This document shows positions 28,190 to 52,863 of a stretch of 64,000 bases of DNA, one piece after another. Position numbers and translations under genes: made by a program. How positions within the stretch are numbered: the first letter of the stretch is position 1; every line of letters begins with the position of its first letter. Source of the DNA: Serratia marcescens subsp. marcescens ATCC 13880 (GTDB lineage Bacteria; Pseudomonadota; Gammaproteobacteria; Enterobacterales; Enterobacteriaceae); contig NZ_CP071238.1 of the NCBI RefSeq assembly GCF_017299535.1, positions 1,116,001-1,180,000 on the forward strand, written 5' to 3'. The notes below the pieces were generated by a model. That model searched no databases. It saw only the letters and a list, made by a program, of their open reading frames with translations, and had not been told where the DNA came from.

Positions 28190-30901
28190 TCATTTCCTGG
28201 GTTTAAAACGCAGCAGCCGGTTGGCGTTGCTGACCACGGTAATGGACGACAGCGCCATCGCCGCGCCCGCCACCACCGGGCTGAGCAGCGTGCCGGTCAG
28301 AGGGTAGAGCACGCCGGCGGCGATCGGGATGCCCAGCGTATTGTAGATAAAGGCGCCGAACAGGTTCTGCTTCATGTTGCGCAGCGTGGCCTTCGACAGT
28401 TCCACCGCATCCGCCACGCCGTGCAGGCTGTGGCGCATCAGGGTGATGGCGGCGGTCTCGATGGCGATGTCGCTGCCGCCGCCCATCGCGATGCCCACGT
28501 CGGCCTGCGCCAGCGCCGGGGCGTCGTTGATGCCGTCGCCGACCATCGCCACGCGCTGGCCCTGCGCCTGCAGCTGCTTGATCGCCGCCGCTTTGCCGTC
28601 CGGCAGCACGCCGGCAATCACCCGATCGATACCGGCCTCTTTGGCGATGGCGTTGGCGGTTACCGGGTTGTCGCCGGTCAGCATCACCAACTGATACCCC
28701 TGTTGGTGCAGGCGCTGCAGCGCCGCGACGCTGTCCTCGCGCAGCGGATCGCGAATGGCGAACAGCGCGGCCGGTTTACCGTCCACGGCCAGCAGCACCG
28801 GCGTCACGCCGCGTTCGGCCTGGGCGCGCATCGGCGCTTCCAGTTCGGCGGTCACGACCTGATGCTGCTCCAGCAGCGCGGCGTTGCCCAGCAGCACCTG
28901 AACGCCGTCGATCTCCCCGCTGACGCCGGCGCCGCGCAGGGTGCGGAACTGCGCTACCTGCGGCAGCGTTTGCCCGGCGGCGCGTTCCATGATGGCGCGC
29001 GCCAGCGGGTGGTTGGAGCCTTGTTCCAGCGCGGCGGCCCAGCCGATCGCCTGCTGTTCGCTGACCTGATTGAAGGTGAGGATCTCCACCACCTGCGGTT
29101 TCCCTTCGGTCAGGGTGCCGGTTTTGTCGAACACCAGGGTGTCCAGCTGGCTGGCCTGCTGCAGGGCGTCGGCGTCGCGCACCAGCACGCCGAACTCCGC
29201 CGCGCGGCCGACGCCGGAGATGATCGACATCGGCGTTGCCAGGCCCAATGCGCACGGGCAGGCGATGATCAGCACCGTGGTGGCGATCACCAGCGTATAG
29301 ACCAGCTGCGGCTGCGGGCCGAAGAAGTACCACATCGCCGCGCTGAACAGCGCGATCGCCACCACCGCCGGCACGAACACCGCCGAGACGCGGTCGGCCA
29401 GTTGGCCGATCGCCGGTTTACTGCTCTGCGCCTGACGCACCAGTTTGATGATGCGCGCCAGCGTGGTTTGGCTGCCGATGGCGGCGGCGCGGAACAGCAC
29501 GCTGCCGTCGTCGACCACCGTCCCGGCATGCACCGTATCGCCGGGGCCTTTCTGCTGCGGCACCGCTTCGCCGGTCAGCATCGCTTCATCGAGCCAGACT
29601 TCGCCCTGCTCGATTTCACCGTCGACCGGCACGCGATCGCCGGTGGTCAGCCGCAGCGTCATGCCGAGCTGCACCTCCGCCAGCGGGATATCGCGCTCGC
29701 CGTCGTCGGTCACCTGGCGCGCGGTGGGCGGCGTCAGATCCAGCAGCCGCTCCAGCGCCTGTGAAGAGCGCTGACGGGCGCGCTGCTCCAGCGCATGGCC
29801 GAGGTTGATCAAACCGATGATCATCGCGCTGGCCTCGTAATAGAGGTGGCGCGCCGCCATCGGGAAGAAATCGGGCCAAATGTTGACGGCGATCGAATAA
29901 AGCCAGGCGGCGCCGGTGCCGAGCGCCACCAGGGTGTCCATGGTAGCGCTGCCGTTCATCAGCGCGCGCCAGGCGTTGCGGTAGAAGTGCCCGCCGGCGA
30001 ACACCATCACCGCCAGGGTGATGACGCCGACCAGCAGCCAGGGGCGCTGAGTTTCCGGCGTCAGCGTCATGCTGCCGCCGAACAGCCCCCAGGCCATCAG
30101 CGGGATACCCAACGCCAGACCGAGCGCCGCCTGCCAGCTAAAGCGCTTCATGTTGGCGCGTGCGGTCTGCTGCTGGCGCTCGCGGCGTTCGGTCTCGTCC
30201 TGAATCATCTCGGCGCCGTAGCCGGCTTTTTCCACCGCCGCCACCAGCGCTTGCGCATCGGCGGCGCCGGTCACCAGCGCGCTGCGTTCCGCCAGGTTGA
30301 CGCGCGCGTGCTCTACGCCGGGTACGCTTTGCAGCGCCAGCTGCACTTTATTGACGCAGCTGGCGCAGGTCATGCCGCTGAGCAGCAGCTGTACGCTGTC
30401 GTCCGCGCTGTCGGTTGCCGGAAGGGAAGGTTGCGCCGCTGGCTGAACGTCCGGCAACGAAGGTGTTGCGTCAGTCAACGGCTCAGTTTTTGGGGCGGCG
30501 GCGCCTGCTACGCTGGCGTGATAACCGGCATCTTCCACCGCGGCGATCAGCGTTTGCGGATCGGCATCGCCATACACTTTCGCGCTGTCGATAGCGACGT
30601 CGGCGGCGAATACGCCCGGCACCGCCTCCAGCGCCTTGCGGGTGGTGCCGACGCAGTGCATGCAGCTCAGACCGCTCAGCTGCAGTTCGGTATCGGCGTG
30701 CGGCGCGACTTCGGCCTGATAACCGGCGGCGATCACGCTGTCGATCAGCGCGCTGTCCGGTGCGTCGCCGGTCACTTTGGCGTAATGGACGTTAACCTCC
30801 GCCTGTTCGACATCGCTGCGGCTTTCCAGGGCTTTTTTCACCCGCTGCGCGCAGTTCATGCAGGACAGCCCCTGCAATGCCAGCATAGTGGTGTGTGACA
30901 T
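28190..30901 (-). CDS. copA: CopA, Cu(I)-exporting P1B-type ATPase
   Basis: Inner-membrane copper exporter of 903 residues (E. coli 834). It has three N-terminal heavy-metal domains, against two in E. coli: C14/C17 (GLSCMNC), C80/C83 (GLSCMHC) and C179/C182 (GMTCASC). An Ala/Pro-rich linker joins domains 2 and 3. The ATPase core has the CPC copper motif ([13 protein letters not shown]), the phosphorylated Asp in [11 protein letters not shown], and late membrane motifs [11 protein letters not shown] and [21 protein letters not shown] precedes the start. A CueR box with a MerR-type promoter lies upstream. A likely -1 frameshift site lies at the domain 2 boundary. Confidence 0.97.
30414..30494 (-). 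promoter_or_regulatory. Predicted -1 frameshift site in copA giving a two-domain copper chaperone
   Basis: The slippery heptamer C CCA AAA (30494 down to 30488) is in frame at Pro137-Lys138, immediately after metal-binding domain 2. After a -1 slip the next codons are AAC and then TGA (30485-30483), giving a 139-residue product with both first CxxC domains. Downstream, GTTGCCGG (30458-30451) can pair with GCAAC just upstream of it or with CCGGCAAC (30421-30414). In E. coli copA, a CCCAAAG slip after domain 1 is known to give the chaperone CopA(Z). Function here is inferred. Confidence 0.6.
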
Positions 30902-30969: not shown

Positions 30970-31000
30970 AGCTTAAACCTTCCAGCAAGGGTAAGGTCAA
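30970..31000 (-). promoter_or_regulatory. CueR-controlled copA promoter
   Basis: The dyad ACCTTCCAGCAAGGGTAAGGT minus one base (30977-30997) matches the CueR box; its key arms are ACCTT and AAGGT. On the minus strand, -35 TTGACC (31000-30995) and -10 TAAGCT (30975-30970) are separated by 19 bases, the stretched spacer typical of MerR-family activation. Copper-bound CueR would activate copA from here. Confidence 0.87.
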
Positions 31001-33868: not shown

Positions 33869-36157
33869 TTAAACGGGTTGATGGATAAGCAAATGGTAAT
33901 TGATGCCACCGGTGCCAAAGCCGTTGATCGCCGCCCGACGTCCGTCTTCACCGTGTGGCCAGTCGAGCGCGATTTGCGGGATTTCGGCCGGGATCGCCGC
34001 CAGCGGCAGTTCGGCGTTCAATGTCGCCACCGGCGTGGGCGGGATTTGACCGTGTTCGAAAGCGCTCAGCACTTTGCACAGGCTGAGCGCGCCGGCGCCG
34101 GCGAAACAGTGGCCGAAGTTGTACTTCACCGAGCCGATGTACAAAGGGGCGCGCGCGGCGCGGCGATACCCCTGATGCAATGACGCGACTTCTGCCCGAT
34201 CGCCCAGTTCGGTGCCGGTGCCGTGCGCTTCGAGATACTGTATCTGGCGCGCTTCGACGGCGCTCAGGCTCTGGGTTTTTTCGATTGCCAACGCCTGGCC
34301 CTCGGGATCGGGCGCGGTCATGGAATAGCTGTCGCAAGATCCCGATATCGCTTCGATGGTGGCGATGGCCCGCGATGTCGCCTGGCCGGTCAGAATGAAG
34401 AAGCCGCCACCGTCGCCGGGAGTAAAACCGTCGGCTTGTCGGGCGAAAGGTCGCATACGCGAAGCGGAAAGCATCATCTGCGCGCTGCACAGCACCATAT
34501 CGCGTTCGAGCGTCGCCGTTTCTATGCCGCCGACGAGCACCGCATCGTAGCGGCCGGCCTGTAATGCCCTGACCGCATTGTGCAAGGCGGCCAGCGAACT
34601 GGCGCAGGCCGCCTCGACCGCGTAGCAGTCCGCCTCGACGCCGAGCTGTTGCGCCAACAGCTGCGCGGTGCCGAGGCCGCAGGCGCCATGCCAGCTCCAG
34701 CGGTTGATCGCGGGTTGGGGCGGTGGCGAAAGGGAGACGCCGGCGGGAGGCAACGCCGGCCACAGGGCGCGCATGGCCTGTTGTCGATCGGCGCTCAAAG
34801 ACAGGTTGCTGGCGACGATAATGGCGATGCGTTCAAAGCGTCGCAGGCTGTCGGGCCACGCCGCGCAGCCGTTGAGGGCGTGCAGTTGTGTGACGTCGAG
34901 GCGCTGTTTTTTGGCCGGCATCATAGGCCGCGTCAGCTCAAGCCGCACCGGATCGTGCGTTGGGAAGCACATGGCGTGAGCGGTGTAGGCGCTGAGCTTT
35001 TGCGGCGTGGGGCGCACGAAGGCGCCGGGGTGCAGCTGCTCGGGGCTGTGATCGCGCAGGGCGTCCTCCCCGTTGCGCAAGGCCTGCCAGAAACGCGCTT
35101 TATCCAGCCCCTGCGCGGTGATGGGCTGATAGTCGATGATGCTGATGCGTGGCGAAGCCGTCGGTTTTAATGAGGGGGGAGACGCCGCGTCGATCCGCCA
35201 GCGGTAGCCGGTGAACGAGTGGCCGGCGCACGCCTGTTGCCGTTGCAACAGCATGTCGAGGAGATGGCAGAAAACCTGATTGGCGCCGGCAAAATAGCCG
35301 GCGCTCGGCGCGGCATCCTGCCGTTCGGCGATCAGGGTCGACAATTGCGCGATCGCTGGCCATCCCTGTTCCTGAGCGACGTCCAGCGGGCAAACGACCA
35401 GGCTGATCGCGCCCTCCAGCCAACAGGCCGAAGAGGAAACGCCCTGCGCCAACAGCATGTCCGCCTGAGGTTGATGGTGGAAGCATTGTACGGCGGTCAG
35501 CACCGCCATGCGGCTGTCGGCATGGCGAAAACAGTCTTGTGCCAGCTGCAGCAAGCGCAGGCCGCCCAGATCGGCGCCGTCGAGGGTTTGGCATTTACCG
35601 CGCGTGCGGGCGAAATGGGCGATGCGCGCGGGAATGCTGGAGGCCATTTCCCCCACGCGATCGTGGGATGAACTGCCGAACGCCTGGGCCAGCGGCTGTT
35701 TGTAATCGTCAATCCGGCGCATGACCGCCGCCGGTGAGAGCCCCTGAGCGTCAAGCCGTTCGGCCAGCCTGCGCAGCGCGCCGATTTTGGTGGCGTTGCG
35801 ATAGGCGGCATCACTGCCCAAATGGGTGGCGCAAAATTGATCGCAGCGGTCGCGCAACGCGTCGGATAACGTCAGATGCTGCATGGCGGCGGAGGCGGCC
35901 TGCAGCGCCAGGCGGGTCTCGCGGCTGACCGCCAGTCGAAACAGCGGCGGGATGGCGAATTTTTTGAAATCAAACGCGGCGTCGTCGATCTGGCGGCCGC
36001 GGATCGGCGCGGCCGCATCGCTCCACGGCATCGGCGGCGGGGCGTCGAACAGCGCCGACCAGGCGGCGCCGTTGGACAGATCGATACGATCGATGCCGGG
36101 CAGTGCGCAGCCGATGCCGACCAGCGCCAGCGGCGCGGCATGAATTTCCTGGTTCAT
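33869..36157 (-). CDS. pigJ: PigJ, ketosynthase of the bipyrrole branch
   Basis: 762-residue beta-ketoacyl synthase that condenses the pyrrolyl thioester from PigG with a malonyl unit on PigH. Two KS-like halves are visible. The C-terminal half has the full triad: Cys518 in EAACASSL, His645 in [11 protein letters not shown] and His683 in [10 protein letters not shown]. The N-terminal half starts with the KS-like [14 protein letters not shown] but has no Cys-His-His set. The start ATG at 36157 overlaps the pigI stop as ATGA. Confidence 0.95.
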
Positions 36158-37629
36158 CGCGCATTCACCTCGGACAAACGTCCTCTGTCCACCTTGCCGT
36201 TCGCGTTGGTGGGCAGGCTGTCGGCGACCACCAGTTGGCTGGGGAGCATATAGGCGGGCAGCCTGGGCTGCAGGAACTGCTTGAGCTCCAGCAGGTTGGG
36301 GCGGAGCGCGCCGGGATGGAGGGTGATCACGGCGATCAGTTTTTGCTTCAGCTCGCCAAGCTCGACATACAGTGCGGCCTGGCAGACCGAGGGATGGTGA
36401 TGAAGGATCGATTCTATCTCCCCCAATTCCACCCGGTAGCCGTTGATTTTCACCATGTCGTCCAGCCGGCCGCGGTAGACCAGCCCATTCGCCGTCGTCT
36501 CCACCCAGTCGCCGGTCGCGTGGCATTGGCGCGGATGCCATTGCGCTTGCCGCGATGAGGTGACGTTGCTGTAGCCGGGGGTAACGCACGGCCCGCCGAT
36601 CAGCAATTCTCCGCGTCGGCCCGGCGTGCCGTCAATCGGCTGCAGACGCCCCTGCTCATCGACCAACTGCGCCGTCAAGCCGGGCAGCGGATGGCCGATG
36701 GGGATCTGCTCCAGCGTCGCCAACTGCATTCGATCCAGCGCGTAGGCGGTGCAGACATTGGTTTCCGTCGGGCCATACCAGTTGCTGACGCGGCAGCGGG
36801 CCGGCAGATGCGCAACCAGGCGCCTCAGCGCGGCGGCCGGATAAGGCTCTCCGGCGAACGTGACCTGGCGCAGCGTTTTCACCGTCGACGGCGCCAGCAA
36901 CGCGCTCTTTTCCAGCATGGCTAAAATCGAAGGCACGCTATACCACAGGGTGACGCCGTGCGTTTGCAATCCGCGAACGAGAGCCTGGCAATCTTTCTGT
37001 TCATCTTCGCGCACGATCCAGGTCGCGGCGCCGGCACAAACGCCAGCGAACAGATCGAAGGTGCTCAGATCAAAGGCGAAACTGGCATGGTTGGCCAGCA
37101 CGTCGCGCGCCGTCAGTTGTGTATCGCTGACGGCCCAGCCGATGAAAAACGTCAGCATGTCATGGGTGATTTGCACCCCTTTCGGGGTGCCTGTGGAGCC
37201 TGAAGTATAGAGAATGGCGGCGAGGGGAGAGCCGAGCGCGGCGATCGCTTCCGGCCAGGCGCCATCGAGATCGGTGCGGTCATCGAGCGCGTTCAACCAG
37301 CCCTCATCGACGATCAGCGCGGGTGAGGCGGCGGCGATAATGCGTTCGATGCGCGCCGTCGGTTGGCTGAAATCGATAGGGACATAGTGGTTGCCGCTCA
37401 GCCAACATGCGTACATGGCGGCGACGGCGTCGGGCCCTTTCTGCAGGTTGAGCAGCACGGCCTGCTGCTTCAACCCGGCATGTCGCAGCGCCGCCGCCAT
37501 CATGCAGGCGCGATCGGCCAGGCGACGATAGCTCCAGCGCCGATCGCCGCACAGCAGTGCGGTGCTTTCCGGCGCTTGGCGGGCGTGCCGGAACAGGGCC
37601 TCCAGTATCGATGAAATGAAGGTTGCCAT
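36154..37629 (-). CDS. pigI: PigI, L-prolyl-AMP ligase
   Basis: 491-residue stand-alone adenylation enzyme that activates L-proline and loads it onto carrier protein PigG, the first step to MBC. NRPS adenylation motifs are in order: [13 protein letters not shown] (A3), YGPTETNV (A5), TGDWVE (A7), [20 protein letters not shown] (A8) and NANGKVDR with the A10 lysine. The start at 37629 follows pigH by 4 bases. The in-frame extension to 37758 lies inside pigH and is rejected. Confidence 0.96.
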
Positions 37630-37633
37630 GATG

Positions 37634-39580
37634 TCAGACCTCGGCGGCGCGTGCGCGCGCTTCCCGTCGGACATCGCCGTTGACCGGCACGCCGGTCTCC
37701 AGCGCCGCCGCCACCAAAATGGCGTAGGCTTCATCCAGATCTTCACGCGTGTGTTCACTGGTCACGCTGATGCGTAAGCGGGCGTCACCCACGCTGACGC
37801 CCGGGAAGACCACGGTCTGGCAGAATAGCCCGCGCGCCCGGACGGCGCGGCCGAACAGCAGCGTTTTGGCGTCGTCGCCCACCACCACCGGAATGATGGC
37901 CGAGTCGGAATGCTCAAGGTCAAAACCGGCGTTAAGCAGCAGCGTGCGGAAGTAGTAGATGTTGTCCCACAGCTTGGTCAGTCGCTCGGGTTCACGCAGC
38001 ATCACGTCGATGGAGGCGATCACGCCGGCGGCGACTGCGGCGGGGATGGTGGCGGCGAAAACATAGGAGTTGGAGTAGAAACGCAGGTATTCGACCACTT
38101 CGCCATCGGCGCAAACGAAGCCGCCTAACCCCGACAGCGCCTTGCTCATGGTGCCCAGTTCGAGATCCACCTGGCCTTTCATATTGAAGTGTTCCGCCGT
38201 GCCCGAGCCGGTTTTGCCCAAGACGCCGGTCGCGTGCGCGTCGTCGACCAATACGCGTGCGCCGTAGCGTTCGGCCAGCTTCATCAGGCGCGGCAGATCG
38301 ACGATATCGCCGTGCATGCTGAAAACGCCATCGGTGACGATCAGCTTGCCGCCGGGGTGATCGGCGTATTTGGCCAGCGATTTCTCAAGGCTGGTCAAAG
38401 AGTGGTCATAAATTTTCCGCTGCGCGCCCGCCAACTTGCAGCCGTCCTGGATGCTCATGTGGTTGATGGCGTCGGTGAACACCAGGTCGTGTCGGCTGGT
38501 CAGAGCCGAGATGCATCCCAGGTTGGCCGAGTAGCCGGACGGATAGACGATGCAGTCTTCGCGCCCTTTGAGCTTGGCCAGTTTGCGCTCCAATTCCAGA
38601 TGCAGCACGTTGCTGCCGGCGATGATGCGGCACCCGGTGTTGGTGGCGCCGTACAGGCCAGCGGCGTCCTGGATGGCGTGGATCACTTCCGGATGGTTCG
38701 ACAATCCCAGATAGCTGTTGGAGCCGAACATCAGAAATTCGCGGCTTTTGCCGGTGACCTCGTCGAACATGACCGCGCGGTTTTTGCACGGCGTTTCAAG
38801 TGGCATGCCGTACCAGTAAAGCTGACGCTGTTTTTTATCGCGATAAAAAGCGCCGAATTCACGCGTTTTATGGAACAAATCCGGGTGCTCGATGCCGACG
38901 AAGTCCCGCATGGTGCGCGGATCGCCGAGCTCATCGCGCGCGTCCGGCGATGCGGGCGCCTTGGTGGGCTGCGGCGCGGCGGACGCGGCGGTGTGCTGGC
39001 CAAAGCGGCTGAACCACGCTTCGCCCTGTTCCTGAACCAGCCGCGCCGCCAGGTTGTGCTCCAGCTCAGCCAGCGTGCGGCACTCCGCCAGCGCTGCGTT
39101 ATCGTCCAGGCCCAGCGTTTTGAGCAACTCGTTGCGCGCCATCACCACCGCTACGGAGTCGATGCCCAGGTCGCCTTCGATGGCGGCGTCGGGGGACAGA
39201 TCACGCACTTCATATCCGCTGTGGGTGGCGAACACCTGGCGCACGAGAGCGCTCAACCAGGCCTGAGGCGTCTGGGGGGCAGGTTGCGCGGCGGCGTTCG
39301 GCGTCGGCAGCGTGAAACCGCGCTGCAAAATACCGTCGAGCGCATCCTGAATGGTTTTGATCTCCTGGATCGCCAGCGGCGTATTTAATTGGAACTGACG
39401 GTTCAGCACCATGGCAATTTCCGCCAGCGCGATGGAGTCGACGCCCAAATCGTTTTCCAGATGGCTGGTCAGGGCCAGTGCCGACGGTTCATACTCGGTC
39501 AGCCGGGCGAAGGTGTGCAGCACCGACTGCCGGACGGCTTCATGCGCGTTTGCGGCGCTATCGACGGCGTGAACGCTCAT
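37634..39580 (-). CDS. pigH: PigH, tandem-ACP / alpha-oxoamine synthase fusion
   Basis: 648 residues. Two acyl-carrier domains come first, with phosphopantetheine serines at Ser49 (GVDSIALAE) and Ser142 (GIDSVAVVM). A PLP-dependent alpha-oxoamine synthase follows from about residue 230, with Schiff-base Lys480 in [12 protein letters not shown] and VDDAHATG upstream. It carries the malonyl unit, receives the PigJ product, and condenses it with serine to form 4-hydroxy-2,2'-bipyrrole-5-methanol. Its ATG overlaps the pigG stop (ATGA). Confidence 0.96.
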
Positions 39581-39840
39581 GCGACACCCCCTGCGGCGAC
39601 TTGCGCTTGCAACCGTTGCACCAGCGCGACCATCGCCTGCACCGAGGCGAAGTTCGCCGGATGGATCTCATGCATGCCGATGGCGACATGAGACTCCTGA
39701 CGCAGAAAATCCACCAGATCGAAAATGGAGGCGGAATCGACGACGTTCAGTTCAAACAGCGGGGTTTGAGCATTCAGGCCGTCGTGATCGCCATCCAGAT
39801 ACTGGGTGGCGATATGCTGGATCAATTTGCTTTCTAACAT
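39577..39840 (-). CDS. pigG: PigG, peptidyl carrier protein
   Basis: 87-residue free-standing carrier protein with attachment Ser36 in NVVDSASIFDLVDFL. It is loaded with proline by PigI. The prolyl thioester is then oxidised to pyrrolyl by PigA and passed to PigJ. It lies 23 bases after pigF and overlaps pigH by 4 bases, so the carrier and its partner synthase are translated in step. Confidence 0.94.
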   Translation of the reverse strand: MLESKLIQHIATQYLDGDHDGLNAQTPLFELNVVDSASIFDLVDFLRQESHVAIGMHEIHPANFASVQAMVALVQRLQAQVAAGGVA

Positions 39841-39863
39841 TGCGAGCTCCCGTTGCTAACTGG

Positions 39864-40880
39864 TTATTTTTCGCCGACGATCAGGGTGCGTGGGCCGGCT
39901 ATTTTCATGATGCGCGCGTTGCTGAATCCCGCCAGACGGAATCTGTCCAGGTATTCCTGCGCGCTGCTCTCTATGCCGCCGTCGGTGGAGACCAGCATGT
40001 TCAGCGACAGCAGGGCGGTAAATTCCGGCCCTGATTTGTCTTCGTTCAGCGGCGTTTCGGAAGCGATGAAGCGGCCGCCGGCCGGCATCGCCCGATAGAT
40101 GTTGCGCAGGATGGTCAGTTGGGTTTCCGGGGCGTAGTCGTGCAGCATCCATCCCAGGTGGATCAGGTCATAGCCGCCGATCGGCAGATCGCCGCTGATG
40201 ACATCGCCCTCCACGACGTCAATGCGTTCGCCATAGCCTTGCAGCGTCAGCTTGTCGCGCAAGAACGCCGAGGCCTGCGGCAGTTCGCAGATCGCGAGTG
40301 CGATCCCCGGATAAGCGTCGGCGATCGCCATCGGCAGGCTGCCGATCCCGCTGCCGATGTCCAAAAACGCACGGTGTTGCGAGAAGTCGTAATCGCGAAC
40401 AAAGCCGGCGATAAAGGGCGCGGCGAATTTACCGAGAAATTCCTGGAAGTCCGCCACGTCGTCCGGATTTTGGTACAGGATGTCGAACCAACTGCGGTCA
40501 TCGCCGAATACCGTGCGGCGCTGGTGGGCATCGTTTCGCACCGCCGTTTTCAGCTCGCCCCATAGCGGATACAGGAAGGTATCGATGTGGCGGCCCAGCC
40601 ATCCCAGCCACTGGGGTTCGTCGCTCAACAGAAAAGCCCGATGGGCGGCGGGCAAATGATAAAGGCCGTCTCGTTGGTCGAGATACCCCATGGCCCGCAG
40701 CGCGATGAGCAACTGCTCGGTGGAACGCGCCGGGCAGTCAAGCCGCGCGGCGATGTGCGCCGCGTCGGCGTCCCGATCGCGCAGCTGATCGAACAGCTTC
40801 AGCGCCAGCGCGGCGGTCAGCGCCTTGGCCTGGAAAAAGCCCATCATCTGATTGACGGCATCTTGCTTGGTTAAAGGCAT
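39864..40880 (-). CDS. pigF: PigF, SAM-dependent O-methyltransferase
   Basis: 338 residues of the plant/antibiotic O-methyltransferase type. It has an N-terminal winged-helix dimerisation domain (to about residue 105) and a Rossmann methyltransferase domain with SAM motif LDIGSGIGSLP near residue 173. The later LGWMLHDYAPE contains the likely catalytic His. It methylates the 4-hydroxyl of HBC to give MBC, together with PigN. It sits between monopyrrole gene pigE and carrier gene pigG, 10 bases after pigE. Confidence 0.95.
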   Translation of the reverse strand: MPLTKQDAVNQMMGFFQAKALTAALALKLFDQLRDRDADAAHIAARLDCPARSTEQLLIALRAMGYLDQRDGLYHLPAAHRAFLLSDEPQWLGWLGRHIDTFLYPLWGELKTAVRNDAHQRRTVFGDDRSWFDILYQNPDDVADFQEFLGKFAAPFIAGFVRDYDFSQHRAFLDIGSGIGSLPMAIADAYPGIALAICELPQASAFLRDKLTLQGYGERIDVVEGDVISGDLPIGGYDLIHLGWMLHDYAPETQLTILRNIYRAMPAGGRFIASETPLNEDKSGPEFTALLSLNMLVSTDGGIESSAQEYLDRFRLAGFSNARIMKIAGPRTLIVGEK

Positions 40881-40890
40881 TGCTGGCTCC

Positions 40891-46052
<5,162 letters not shown>

Positions 46053-46222
46053 GATGAGTTCCTTGTGCAGCCAAAATGGAGTGACGGCTTCAGCCAGGCG
46101 GGCAAATTCGGCACGACAAAGCCCGCGACGGTCTCTGCAGGCGGCGGTTGCCGCGCGCATCACCTTCGTTGAATTGTGCTGTGTTCAGGCGGATGGTTTA
46201 CCTTCGCCGGATGTGGTGCTGA

Positions 46223-48889
46223 CTAGCCATCGGCACGTTCTCCGCGTTGAATAATGACCGTCCCGCTGTCGCCGTCGAGAATCAAGGTGTCGCCGCTGTT
46301 GATCAACTGGGTGGCGTTCTTGAGATTGACCGCCGCGGGAATGCCGAATTCGCGTGCGACGATGCAGCTGTGGGACAGCGCAGAGCCGATATCGGTGACG
46401 ATGCCCGCCGCCAGCGCGAAGAGCGGGGTCCAGCTGGCGTCGGTAAAGCGCGCCACCAGGATTTCGTTGGGCTGCAGCTCGCCGGCCTGCGCCAGCAGAT
46501 CGGTGATGACGCGCGCTTTCGCCACCACTTTGCCGGGGCTGGCCGCCAGGCCGGACAGCATGCCGGCGGCGTTTTCCGCCGTGGGGGCTTTCATCCTGGG
46601 CTGATACCCCCCGACGATCGCCATCGGCGGCTCTTCCGCATGCAGGTTCAGCAGATGCTGGTGGCGATTGCGCTCGATCAGATCGGCGGCGAACGCTTCC
46701 TGCGCCGACTGTTCCCCCGCCATAAACGCGCGGAAGCGCTCGAAGTCCACATAGGGCAGATCGGCCGATTTGACCAGGCCTTGCGCCTCCAGGCGCCGCA
46801 GCACTTCCAGCATGATGCGGCGGTAGAACCAGGTTTCGGTGACGAAGGTTGGCCGGGTCGCTTCGCGGCGTTCGGCCATCACGCCATACAGTTTGGTGAT
46901 GAACTTCAGCTTCATCCGGCCAAACCAGGGCATCGCTTTAAGCAGCGTCGCGCTGTCTTCATGGCGCAGCCGCTCTGTTTCCCGCAGTTTCGTGTGCAGA
47001 TCCACCGGATGTTGCAGATACATTTTCATCACTTGCAGCAGGTAGCTGGGATCGTCGTTCCAGCGCGGAAGACTCAATTCGAACTCCTGGCGGCCACGGG
47101 CGCCGAACTCGAACAGGAAGGCGCTGAAGTCGCTTTGCCAGAAGGCGCGCGATTCGGGATCGGTGGGCAGGACGGTGACCAGTTCCTGTGCGCTGTGTCG
47201 CTCGAACAGGGCCTTCAACGCCGGTTGACGATTGACCGTCTCCACCAGGCTGAGAATGCCCAGCGTGACTTCGATGGTGCGCAGGTTGTTCATCGACGCC
47301 TTGATGCGATTTTGCAATCCGTTGCCGCGGCCTTTGAGATAACGTTCGCAGGTCAGCGCCAGCGCATCGTAGAGCGCGAACGACTGAAGGAAGAAGGGCA
47401 TATAGGCGGCGCAGCTGTCGAGGAAGTAACCGTCGATGCGGCTGAGTTCTCGCTCCAGTTCCTGATGTGTCATGGTCGTCAGATCCAGCGCCAGAAAGCG
47501 GCGCGTCTCGCGCTGGCGCAGGGCGATCATGGCATCGACGGTCGCGCCGGCGCTGCGCAGGTTATGCCTCTGCTGTTTCAGCCAATGCCAGGCGCTCTTG
47601 AGATAAGCCCATCCCTGTACGCCGGGGCCATAGGGGTTTTTGTACCCGCTGAAATCGATATCGGCGGTGGCGTAGCGGGTCGTGAACTTCATTTCGTCGC
47701 GGGTGGGCGGGCATTGGCGGAGCATGTAGGCCGATCCGGAGATATTCAGATAGACGTAGCCTTGCAAATACCCCATATAAATCTGCCAATCGCCGATATC
47801 CGCCAGCCCCATGGTTTTGATCGCCGGGCCATGAATATGCTTTTGGTAGAACTGGCAAAACGACAGCCCCAGCGGCGTCATCAAGCCGGTGACGATCTCG
47901 CCGGTGTCCATTCGGGAGAAAAAGGCCCGTTCCTTGATCGTCGGATCGCTTTCCCACGGGTTGGCGTAAAGCATCTGAACCGGTTTGGCCTGCGTGGTGA
48001 TCGGCCGCGCCTGCAGGAGCCACACGCGATCGTCTTTCACCGCCCATTCGATATCCAGTTCCGCGCCGTAAATCATCCGCGTTTGCCGGGCCAGCCTGGT
48101 AAGCTGTTGCAGCTGTTCCGGGGTTAAGCTGGGGGCGTCTCGCCTGGCTTCGGGCGTTTGCAGCAGCGTGACCCGTCCCTGCGGATCGCGTTGGCAATAG
48201 TGCGGTTTGTGACGAATTTGCCGCTCGCGGATCTCGCCGCTCGCCTTATCCAAAATGAAGCTGTCGGTGGTGACTTGTCCGGAGACCACGCCTTCCCCCA
48301 GCCCCCAGCAGCTGTCGATGACGATGTGGTTGGCATCGCCTGTCAGCGGATCTTGGGTAAACATGACGCCGGCGGCGTCTGCATCCACCATGATTTGCAA
48401 GACGACGGCGATATCGCTCTGCGCCGCCGATGTCCGGCTATACTGGGCGGCGCGTTCCGCCCAGAGCGACGCCCAGCAGGATTGCACCTTGCGCACCACC
48501 TCGTCATCCCCGCGCACGTGAAGGTAAGTGTCGTATTGCCCGGCGAAAGAGTGGGTCAGGCCGTCTTCTTCCAGCGCCGAAGAGCGCACGGCGAGCGAGG
48601 CGCCGTCGCCCAACTGTTTGCAGGCGTGACGGATCGCCAGATCGAGCGGGGCGGGGATGGCGGCGCTCAAAATCATATCGCGCACGTTGCCCGGTGCGCC
48701 CGTGTCGAGCAGCGCTCCCGGCACGGCGAATTCGATAAACTGCCGGTAAGCCTGCGCGGTGATGCAAAACGCCGGCGGCACCGGCAAGCCCGCGTGAATC
48801 AAATGATTCAACGAATGGGCTTTGCCGCCCAGGCGATGGGGTTCCAGCGTTTTATCGCCGGAAAGTTCAACCACCAGGGTAGGATTCAT
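46223..48889 (-). CDS. pigC: PigC, prodigiosin-forming condensing enzyme
   Basis: 888-residue ATP-dependent enzyme that joins MBC and MAP to give prodigiosin. The N-terminal part is the ATP-grasp, pyruvate-phosphate-dikinase-like domain ([56 protein letters not shown]). A large middle region specific to PigC follows. The C-terminal phosphohistidine domain has His840 in [18 protein letters not shown]. The start overlaps the pigB stop (ATGA). Confidence 0.96.
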
Positions 48890-50901
48890 GACATCACCTC
48901 CGCAGACGTAACGGGCATTGCGAGGCGTTCTCTCACCGCTTTGGCGGCGTTCAGTCCGGCTAACACCGCGCTTTCGATATTACCGATGCCCACGCTGTCC
49001 TGATTGGCGAAGTGAATATTCTCAAACGGCCTGCTGGCCTGGTGAAACACGCCCTGGGCCTGTTGCCCGGCGACCGAGGTCACCAGACCCGCGGGCCAGA
49101 ACCAGATTTGAATGTCTTCAATGATGTCGGCGTCAATGCCCATGTTGCCCAGCACTTTGGCGATTTCGACATAGGTCTGTTGCTGCAGCGCCGGGAACTC
49201 GTTTTGCGCGGTGCGACCTTGCCGCTCTGGACGAGTGGTTGGTTTGAGCAGGGTTAATACCCCGGCTTCCGCGCTGAGGTGATTGTCCATCCAATTGGCG
49301 ACCAGGCAGGTGCCGGCTTTGCTCCAATAGTAAGGTGTGCGGGTGTTTTCCGGCTCGATCAGATAGCCGCCGAACGAGCGTTCGAGGATCGGTTTTTTCA
49401 ACAGCACGTTCGCCAGGTAGTAATCTTCATGGCGGATCTGGCGGATCGCCGCCAATTGCTCTTTGGGCAGGGTGGGCAACCAGGTGGGCACATGCGTTTT
49501 GGGGGCGGCCCAGATCACTTGTTTGGCTCTGATTTCGCTGGCCGCGCCATTGACGCTGAACCGGATCACCGTTTCGTCGCCGCCGGGCGTGATGCTTTGA
49601 AGCTGTACGCGGCTTTGCAGCCTGACGTTGTTTTGCTCCTCAAGATAGTCGAGCAGCCCGGCGCTGATGCTGCCGTTACCGCCCGGCAGCGTGACCAGAT
49701 TGCCGCGTAAATACCCCACCAGGAAGTGCAATCCGACATAGGCGGAGACTTCGCGAATATCGAGACATTCCACGCGCAGCGTGGTGCTGACGGCATTCTC
49801 TACCAGCTTGCCGAATTTTCTCGGTGGCCGCAGATCCGCCGGGATCTGATCCAGTTTGTGCGGTTCGAACAGATACGTGTACAGCGGGATAGTGTCGAGC
49901 AGCGCCATATTCGTTTTGCTCCAGGCGCTCTGCGGCGTCCAGGGCAGGCTGGGGTACCGCTCGCCGCGCGGCGAGAAGGTATCCAGGAAGGCGTACAGAT
50001 CGGCAAAGATCGGATCGCCCAGCTGTTTTGCCGCGATAACATAAGGTTTACCGATCAAGGCATGCAGGAATAGTTGTCCCGTCAGGCGCCAGACGGCGGG
50101 TTTAAGCAGGTAGACCGGTTGTTTGATAAAACCGACGACGACTTCACCCAGGCAGCGGAGCAGCAAGAAGGTGTCGAAAAATACCAGCGTGTCCTTTTCA
50201 TTGGATTTATATACGCCGCTCAGACCGATTTTCTTCAGCAGTTGCGCCATGAAAGAATTCGGCAGCGGTTCCTGGAAGCAGACGCCGGCGATAGGAAATT
50301 TCAGGCGGTTCACCGTACTGTAGCGGGCGTTGCCGCCGAAGGAGGCGCTTTTTTCCAGCACCAAAACCCGGCGATCGGTCAGTTCGCTGGCCGCGGCCAA
50401 ACCGGAGACGCCGCCGCCGATGATCACCACGTCATACTCGCCGTCCAGCGCGGGGGTTACCGGGCCGCCTGCCGCCGGCGTGGGCGTGGAAAAGTCGCGC
50501 GTGGGGAACGTGCGCGGCTTGGGTTTGCGGTGGTGCTGCTGACGCAGCATGTACAGCGCCGCCAGCGCGAAAATCGCATCGAGCAACATGACCTGCGGCT
50601 GGGCGCGGTGCAGGATCGTGACAAATCCCGCCATCATCAGCAGCTGGCAGTAGATGATCAATGGCGTCCAACGCGGGTTGAACATCAAGACCGCACCGGA
50701 GGCAAACAGCGCCACGCCGATCAGCGCGTTAACCACTGTACCCTGCGCCGCCAACCAAGCCGTCGCCCCGGCGTACCAGGTGCCCTGGTTCGCCACGGCC
50801 GCCTGCTGCAGAATATCGGCGACGTTTTCCAACTGAGGGAAGACTTTCGCCAGGCCGGCCAACATATAGAGCACGGCAAAAACGCGTTGAACGATCATCA
50901 T
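48886..50901 (-). CDS. pigB: PigB, FAD-dependent oxidase of the monopyrrole branch
   Basis: 671 residues. An N-terminal membrane region with about four hydrophobic segments (residues 5-120, DoxX-like) is joined to an FAD-dependent amine-oxidase-like domain whose dinucleotide motif [17 protein letters not shown] lies at about 158-174. It oxidises dihydro-MAP to MAP, and the membrane anchor suggests action at the inner membrane. Two ATG codons in tandem open the gene; the first overlaps the pigA stop (ATGA). Confidence 0.95.
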
Positions 50902-52055: not shown

Positions 52056-52461
52056 GACGAACTCCGCCATTGGGTTGAGAGATTAAATTAGCTAATATTT
52101 CTAGTTTGGAGGTGGCCAAAACTCAAACAGGCAAAGTAATGGTAAATGTAAATAAATGTTTATTTATGTGGTCTATTATTACAATTTTGTTAATTGATGT
52201 TTTTATTTTGTTGTTTTTATTGTGTTTTATTTTGTGTTATTTATACACAAAAATTTACATATAATAAAAATCTTAATTTGATCAAATTTTAATAGGTTAG
52301 ATTGTCTATTGTTTTTTGATGAATACTTTGCAGGTGAAGTATCTATCTTTTGGATGTGGCTATCGGTTTCTCATCGATATCGACGGTAGGGCGTTGAGGC
52401 TTGGTGAGTGGCGGAAAGCGGCTTAAGATAGGAGATGAGCAGGAGCATTCCGGAGGAAAAA
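52056..52461. promoter_or_regulatory. AT-rich pigA-cueR intergenic region with the pig promoter
   Basis: About 400 bases with no gene, far richer in A+T than the surroundings, especially 52140-52320. It must hold the pigA promoter (leftward) and the cueR promoter (rightward). Visible elements are the palindrome ATTAGCTAAT (52087-52096), the palindrome AAATAAATGTTTATTT (52150-52165), and repeated TTTTATT tracts at 52201, 52215 and 52225 that suggest bent, H-NS-type DNA. Several -10-like TATA/TAAT words make the exact pigA promoter unclear; TTGTAA near 52190 on the minus strand is one -35 candidate. Confidence 0.75.
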
Positions 52462-52863
52462 ATGAATATTAGCGACGTCGCGAAAAAGACCGGGTTAACC
52501 AGCAAGACGATTCGTTTTTACGAGGAGAAAGCGCTGATTACCGCCCCGATCCGCAGCGATAACGGTTATCGCCATTATTCCGCCAGGCACGTTGAAGAGC
52601 TGACGCTGCTGCGCCAGGCGCGGCAGGTGGGCTTCAACCTGGACGAGTGCCGTGAGCTGGTGGCGTTATTCAACGATCCGGCCCGCCACAGCGCCGACGT
52701 GAAGGCGCGCACGCTGCAGAAGGTGGCGGAGATCGAAAGGCACATCAGCGAACTGGGAGAAATGCGCCAACGCCTGTTGACGCTGGCGGAACAATGTCCG
52801 GGCGACGAGGGGGCGGAGTGCCCCATCATCAATAATCTGGCGGGATGCTGTCGTTCGAATTAA
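52462..52863 (+). CDS. cueR: CueR, copper-responsive MerR-family activator
   Basis: 133 residues (E. coli 135). The N-terminal MerR helix-turn-helix is [21 protein letters not shown] dimerisation coiled coil follows, and then the Cu(I)-binding loop with two cysteines spaced as in E. coli CueR ([11 protein letters not shown]). It activates copA and cueO when copper is present. The start has GGAGG at good spacing. It is divergent from the pig cluster, which separates it from copA; its stop overlaps the ybbJ stop by 3 bases. Confidence 0.96.

Follow-up and report, generated by a model that had tools for sequence, protein, structure and literature searches.

In Escherichia coli, copA reportedly undergoes a programmed -1 frameshift that yields CopA(Z), as described by Meydan et al. 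2017 and Drees et al. 2017, and the abstract of the 2017 paper by Meydan and colleagues is said to mention similar mRNA elements in copA of other bacteria. PMC9548414 states that ribosome profiling gives good support to frameshifting in E. coli copA, which was also confirmed independently, and dismisses the case of human ATP7B. The slipped E. coli product has 70 residues according to PMC5009743, and PMC7558416 names the slippery sequence, a pseudoknot, and the nascent chain as stimulators of slipping and terms the product the CopZ chaperone. In E. coli K-12, the element stands just before the last HMA domain, the same place as in the gene analyzed here, and a joined CDS in RefSeq represents the soluble Cu(+) chaperone. 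Products with two domains, or copA genes in which the frames of the short product and the ATPase are exchanged (hereafter frame-inverted), were the subject of no title or abstract opening among the literature matches listed, most subscription papers being outside the literature searched; a term search of the main texts of PMC3711429 and PMC8915115 returned nothing on copA beyond a reference.

In this study, we analyzed a stretch of 64,000 nucleotides from Serratia marcescens subsp. marcescens ATCC 13880 (hereafter the window). Its copA gene (28190..30901, minus strand) has 903 codons and encodes a P1B-type ATPase with three HMA domains, whose CxxC motifs begin at residues 14, 80, and 179. The product matched the NCBIfam model NF007952 (copper-exporting P-type ATPase CopA) with 1647.6 bits against a cut-off of 1316, and it is 96 to 98% identical to the CopA proteins of several named Serratia contigs. 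HMA domain 1 (residues about 8-62, with C14/C17; 30716..30880, minus strand) is the best PF00403 stretch; domain 2 (residues about 72-132, with C80/C83; 30506..30688, minus strand) is the second HMA stretch in the Pfam count, its limits being taken from PDB matches; and domain 3 (residues 174-228; 30218..30382, minus strand) occurs in the ATPase only. NCBIfam CopZ models also matched HMA stretches inside this CopA. Upstream of the gene, the CueR-type promoter element TTGACCTTACCCTTGCTGGAAGGTTTA (30974..31000, minus strand), which we take to be the CueR box, differs at one position from the stretch upstream of E. coli copA. Prodigiosin genes (the PigJ and PigB models match) lie at 33869-50901, between copA and the cueR gene (52435-52863); this copA, prodigiosin, and cueR arrangement is described for S. 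marcescens in PMC6433178.

A slippery heptamer of the X XXY YYZ type, C CCA AAA, was read from the sequence in frame at Pro137-Lys138 (30488..30494, minus strand), exactly as a first-pass annotation of the window had described. In the -1 frame (30483..30488, minus strand) it is followed by AAC (Asn, 30486-30488) and then TGA (30483-30485), again as annotated, and the two codons end a predicted product of 139 residues, namely, residues 1-138 plus Asn with a Pro-Lys-Asn C-terminus. If ribosomes slip by -1 in copA, this two-domain product follows directly: both cysteine pairs claimed for it, C14/C17 and C80/C83, were found, and Pfam placed two HMA stretches within the 138-residue part before the slip site. 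Because the 20 PDB matches stop at residues 127-133, the site lies 4 to 10 residues past domain 2. The annotated span, 30414-30494, comprises the heptamer and the whole pseudoknot described below. A protein search for free relatives of the two-domain product gave 21 matches, 10 of which were inspected. Two proteins deserve mention in this context: P0001 (140 residues, 13 members, ending PKLSR), in which one residue of domain 1 is also missing, may reflect assembly errors, and P0011 (140 residues, ending PKPSR) may be a frame-inverted case.

The predicted two-domain product is likely a copper chaperone. We regard it as unlikely that slipping is real but the product serves instead to tune the amount of ATPase or to buffer copper; two metal sites would suit a copper buffer too, but both CxxC motifs are invariant in 33 aligned two-domain products, the E. 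coli product bears the name of a CopZ chaperone in PMC7558416, and a one-domain ORF is kept without the pump at the locus in four Serratia genomes. In these genomes (G017-G020, loci L031-L034), a 66-residue ORF with one HMA domain takes the place of copA under a CueR-type promoter, the locus lacks the pump part, and the downstream neighbor gene, judged by eye, is the same as at the copA locus. A Pfam HMA match is shown for the ORF of L031, and by eye the ORF starts like domain 1 and continues like domain 2. All four genomes have another ATPase elsewhere, which is 45% identical and is preceded by a promoter element of this type in a more degenerate form. It follows that the chaperone part can persist when its pump is not encoded in cis.

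In the window, 43 proxy genes (18,393 codons) contained 15 in-frame X XXY YYZ heptamers (Y = A or T), among which the copA heptamer was the only one of the C CCA AAR type, and a -1 stop lay at most two codons away in 3 of the 15. The first-pass argument that such a coincidence is improbable is thus weak when taken from the window alone, but chance as the origin of the copA heptamer and stop is excluded by their conservation among relatives. We searched 30 genomes of the genus and obtained 22 three-HMA copA genes, chosen regardless of the heptamer; all 22 had C CCA AAA with a -1 TGA one codon on. Codons 137-138 were CCA AAA throughout, whereas residue 136 was A, V, I, H, S, L, or P (seven residues), its codon always ending in C. 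Windows over codons 135-145 had pS values of 0.008 to 0.011 against 0.326 gene-wide, and thus occupied ranks 1 to 3 of 899 nine-codon windows as the lowest synonymous diversity of copA, whereas pN at codons 135-143 was 0.097 against a gene mean of 0.045. The expectation stated with the first-pass annotation, that heptamer and stop would be kept among relatives while synonymous sites vary elsewhere in copA, was therefore borne out, both here and in 77 of 84 orthologues of the family (see below). A second stretch of low synonymous diversity was seen in the same 22 genes at codons 20-32 (30806-30844, in HMA domain 1; pS down to 0.026, rank 4 of 899). The remaining eight of the 30 genomes comprised G025, a reduced Serratia genome whose two-HMA copA (locus L023) carries C GCA AAA instead; G017-G020 with the free one-HMA ORF; and G026-G028 (1.5-2.5 Mb), from which intact copA was not obtained.

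At the family level, 149 genomes were searched, about one per genus, and 84 had a copA orthologue at E ≤ 1e-220. In 77 of the 84, C CCA AAR stands immediately ahead of the last HMA domain, and exactly one codon separates it from a -1 stop. Codon counts and distance measures were made on 76 of these 77 elements; L047 (C CCA AAA, stop one codon on) was outside them. CCCAAAG, with a run of only three A, was found in 44 of the 76 genes counted. The first C of the heptamer was the wobble base of a codon for any of nine amino acids, and CCA made up 381 of the 2826 other Pro codons; as these genes were picked by having the heptamer, its fixed bases in the 76 are not evidence as such.

Seven of the 84 orthologues lacked the standard element: three frame-inverted genes (L184, L195, and L196), L058, L057, L060, and L177. 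In L058, A AAA AAA replaces C CCA AAA before the same -1 stop, and both stems of the pseudoknot are changed on both sides and still pair, a possible swap of the slippery sequence. L057 has its -1 stop 18 codons on, and L060 and L177 have no heptamer; these three look like losses of the element. Apparent losses of the recoding element were also seen in L108, L177, L111, and L117 (the last two from Arsenophonus), where the HMA domains remain, the linker has no C CCA AAR, and the pseudoknot arms are absent by eye. Among 55 named enterobacterial loci, which partly overlap the searched genomes and were kept out of the 84, heptamer and near stop occurred in 50: 12/12 Serratia, 13/14 Xenorhabdus, 9/10 Providencia (the tenth was not parsed), 8/8 Proteus, and single loci of Yersinia, Edaphovirga, Ewingella, Erwinia, Tatumella, Winslowiella, Tenebrionibacter, and one family-level MAG. 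Named loci without the element were those of Moellerella (1) and Arsenophonus (2), and in Xenorhabdus kozodoii the stop lies 24 codons on.

We also scanned 295 genomes of the order with a strict pattern of the standard element. It matched 16, all among the 23 genomes of the same family, and none of the 272 genomes of other families, the split by family being made by eye; its backwards control matched none of the 295. The pattern is strict enough to have missed G174, in whose copA (L197) the element is present but a stem is changed. No C CCA AAR was found in the scanned stretch of 25 Vibrionaceae and Pasteurellaceae loci, 4 of which were unparsed in a second count.

The number of HMA domains upstream of the element varies. 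Counted with a regular expression for CxxC, it was one in 53, two in 20, and three in 4 of the 77 orthologues. By contrast, the preceding CxxC stands 56 to 61 residues before the site overall: 56 to 61 with one upstream domain (n = 53), 59 to 61 with two (n = 19), and 59 to 60 with three (n = 4). ORFs were taken from stop to stop, so that codon counts include some pre-start codons. The distances indicate that the site keeps to the boundary ahead of the last HMA domain and that domains are gained and lost upstream. The first-pass proposal that the site had moved to a position after domain 2 was accordingly not upheld, because the E. coli site also lies before the last HMA domain and it is the number of upstream domains that varies instead.

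Comparative alignment revealed an H-type pseudoknot beginning 5 nt after the heptamer. On the minus strand of the window, stem 1 is formed by the 5' arm GCCGTTGAC (30474..30482) and the 3' arm GCCAGCGGC (30435..30443), and stem 2 by the 5' arm GTTGCCGGA (30450..30458) and the 3' arm TCCGGCAAC (30414..30422), the latter with nine perfect pairs between 30450-30458 and 30414-30422. The pairing that had been noticed downstream of the heptamer as a possible pseudoknot, GTTGCCGG (in 30450-30458) with CCGGCAAC (in 30414-30422), turned out to be stem 2 of this covarying structure; the alternative upstream partner GCAAC was present in 14 of 22 Serratia genes. The alignment comprised 84 downstream stretches, namely, those of 83 of the 84 family orthologues (all except L177) and of E. 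coli K-12, and its consensus has stem 1 as CCGCTG/CAGCGG and stem 2 as CCGGAA/TTCCGG in interleaved order. Over 18 pairs, 88.2% of the cells pair, compared with 18.5 to 50.2% in controls with slid partners, and in a 14-pair core the value is 95.0%. Changes on both sides occurred in 13 of the 18 pairs against a shuffled mean of 6.2, with none of 500 shuffles as high, and two-sided changes were seen in 61 cells against 22.6 in shuffles; these counts were made on the sequences whose consensus defined the pseudoknot, and relatedness among them is not preserved by the shuffling. RNAalifold is unable to represent pseudoknots but recovered stem 1 unaided. The plain folding of 30380-30500 suggested with the first-pass annotation gave an unremarkable result: the pseudoknot-free fold was not unusually stable (z -0.60; 47 of 200 shuffles folded as well), and single-sequence folding lent no support because the program does not fold pseudoknots. 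We infer that the pseudoknot would stimulate slipping in Serratia as well.

Frame-inverted copA genes occur in four genomes, G143 (L207), G180 (L206), G033 (L195), and G135 (L196). In these genes, the frame opened by the HMA start codon closes three codons past C CCA AAA, with the chaperone as the predicted unshifted product, and the ATPase, open for 781 to 827 codons, is encoded in the -1 frame relative to this heptamer. The alignment includes three of the inverted genes, and these retain the pseudoknot arms. The ATPase part is under purifying selection, as its dN/dS was 0.062 between L206 and L207 (26 synonymous and 5 other changes) and 0.128 between L195 and L196 (242 synonymous and 117 other changes). 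One match to CopA was found in each of G143 and G180 at E ≤ 1e-200 and in G033 at E ≤ 1e-100. G143 and G180 are two of six genomes of one genus, and the other four have an uninterrupted copA match, with a standard-phase heptamer read in three; these four other species suggest that the two inverted lineages arose independently. When 392 genomes of the family were scanned with a pattern built on the inverted spacing, 5 matched, and the backwards control gave 2; the five were G033, G135, G143, G132 (a degraded copA), and G510 (outside copA), and the pattern is blind to other spacings or stems, G180 not being among the matches listed. Gene callers may well report frame-inverted genes as a broken copA or as separate genes.

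Because the ATPase of these genes is open and selected in the -1 frame at the heptamer, the pump would probably be made there by -1 slipping. The ATPase may start internally instead: upstream of the Met in the last HMA motif, L206 and L207 have an ATG and all four inverted genes have GTG or TTG codons, but no candidate internal start stands at a place common to both lineages. We consider it rather likely that the frameshift element of copA acts as a fixed boundary that allots the metal-binding domains, those upstream being released as a free chaperone with one, two, or three domains and the last being retained by the pump. Its polarity would have flipped, probably on two occasions, once in two species of a single genus and once in a second, Sodalis-like lineage; in both, the unshifted frame would yield the chaperone, and the whole pump would be reached only through the -1 slip on the same heptamer, implying efficient natural slipping.

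Two readings without ribosomal frameshifting carry very little weight. The nucleotide conservation is most improbably a protein constraint on the linker Pro-Lys-X-Glu-Pro-Leu, for P137 and K138 are indeed invariant in 33 aligned sequences (chosen among genes with the heptamer), but the codons CCA and AAA are themselves fixed in Serratia, the preceding residue varies while its wobble base is constant, the -1 stop is kept, the stems covary, and the frame-inverted genes retain the heptamer despite their different reading frames. That a short product arises by transcriptional slippage or ribosome drop-off is likewise highly improbable: the window does have a run of five A, but 44 of the 76 genes counted carry CCCAAAG with a run of only three, both the phase of the heptamer and the pseudoknot match those of ribosomal -1 slipping, and short A runs are not known to suffice for transcript slippage.

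Judging from the sequence comparisons, copA of Serratia is very likely decoded in two ways by programmed -1 frameshifting. Ribosomes remaining in frame would produce the 903-residue copper-exporting ATPase, whereas a fraction would slip by -1 on C CCA AAA with the aid of the H-type pseudoknot, read AAC, and stop at TGA, thereby releasing a soluble 139-residue protein with two HMA domains. This protein would most likely act like E. coli CopA(Z), binding Cu(I) and handing it to the ATPase, and would differ in carrying two metal sites. In this reading, a free chaperone upstream and a pump-only part from the last HMA domain on would meet at the slip site, and gain or loss of upstream HMA domains would therefore alter the size of the chaperone (one to three domains) and leave the signal untouched. 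Most sampled genera of the family that have copA thus appear to keep a recoding signal that was established in a single laboratory species, and in them the signal would set the number of metal-binding domains in the free chaperone; such a chaperone of two or three domains is a directly testable prediction. The frame-inverted genes offer a natural test of how efficient slipping must be, because the pump there seems to depend on the slip.

The Serratia site is of the kind known from E. coli CopA(Z). We class the two-domain product as a variant, since one to three domains stand upstream of the same element, and the frame-inverted genes are likewise variants. The E. coli and Serratia systems share the gene, the C CCA AAR phase, a single codon before the -1 stop, a CueR-type promoter, and a pseudoknot, whose E. 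coli core is CCGCTG/CAGCGG and CGGAAGC/GCTTCCG. However, the E. coli element is preceded by one HMA domain and gives 70 residues, whereas the Serratia element is preceded by two and has a predicted product of 139 residues; the heptamer is CCCAAAG in the former and CCCAAAA in the latter. Like the one-domain chaperones of the CopZ and Atx1 type, the predicted protein consists of HMA sequence with CxxC and matches the CopZ models, but it has two domains and no gene of its own. The tandem HMA structures 1p6t (potential copper-transporting ATPase) and 2ew9 (copper-transporting ATPase 2), with lengths of 151 and 149, are sequence relatives with HMA domains and presumably two-domain pieces; unlike these structures, which are parts of ATPases, the Serratia product is predicted to be a released protein.
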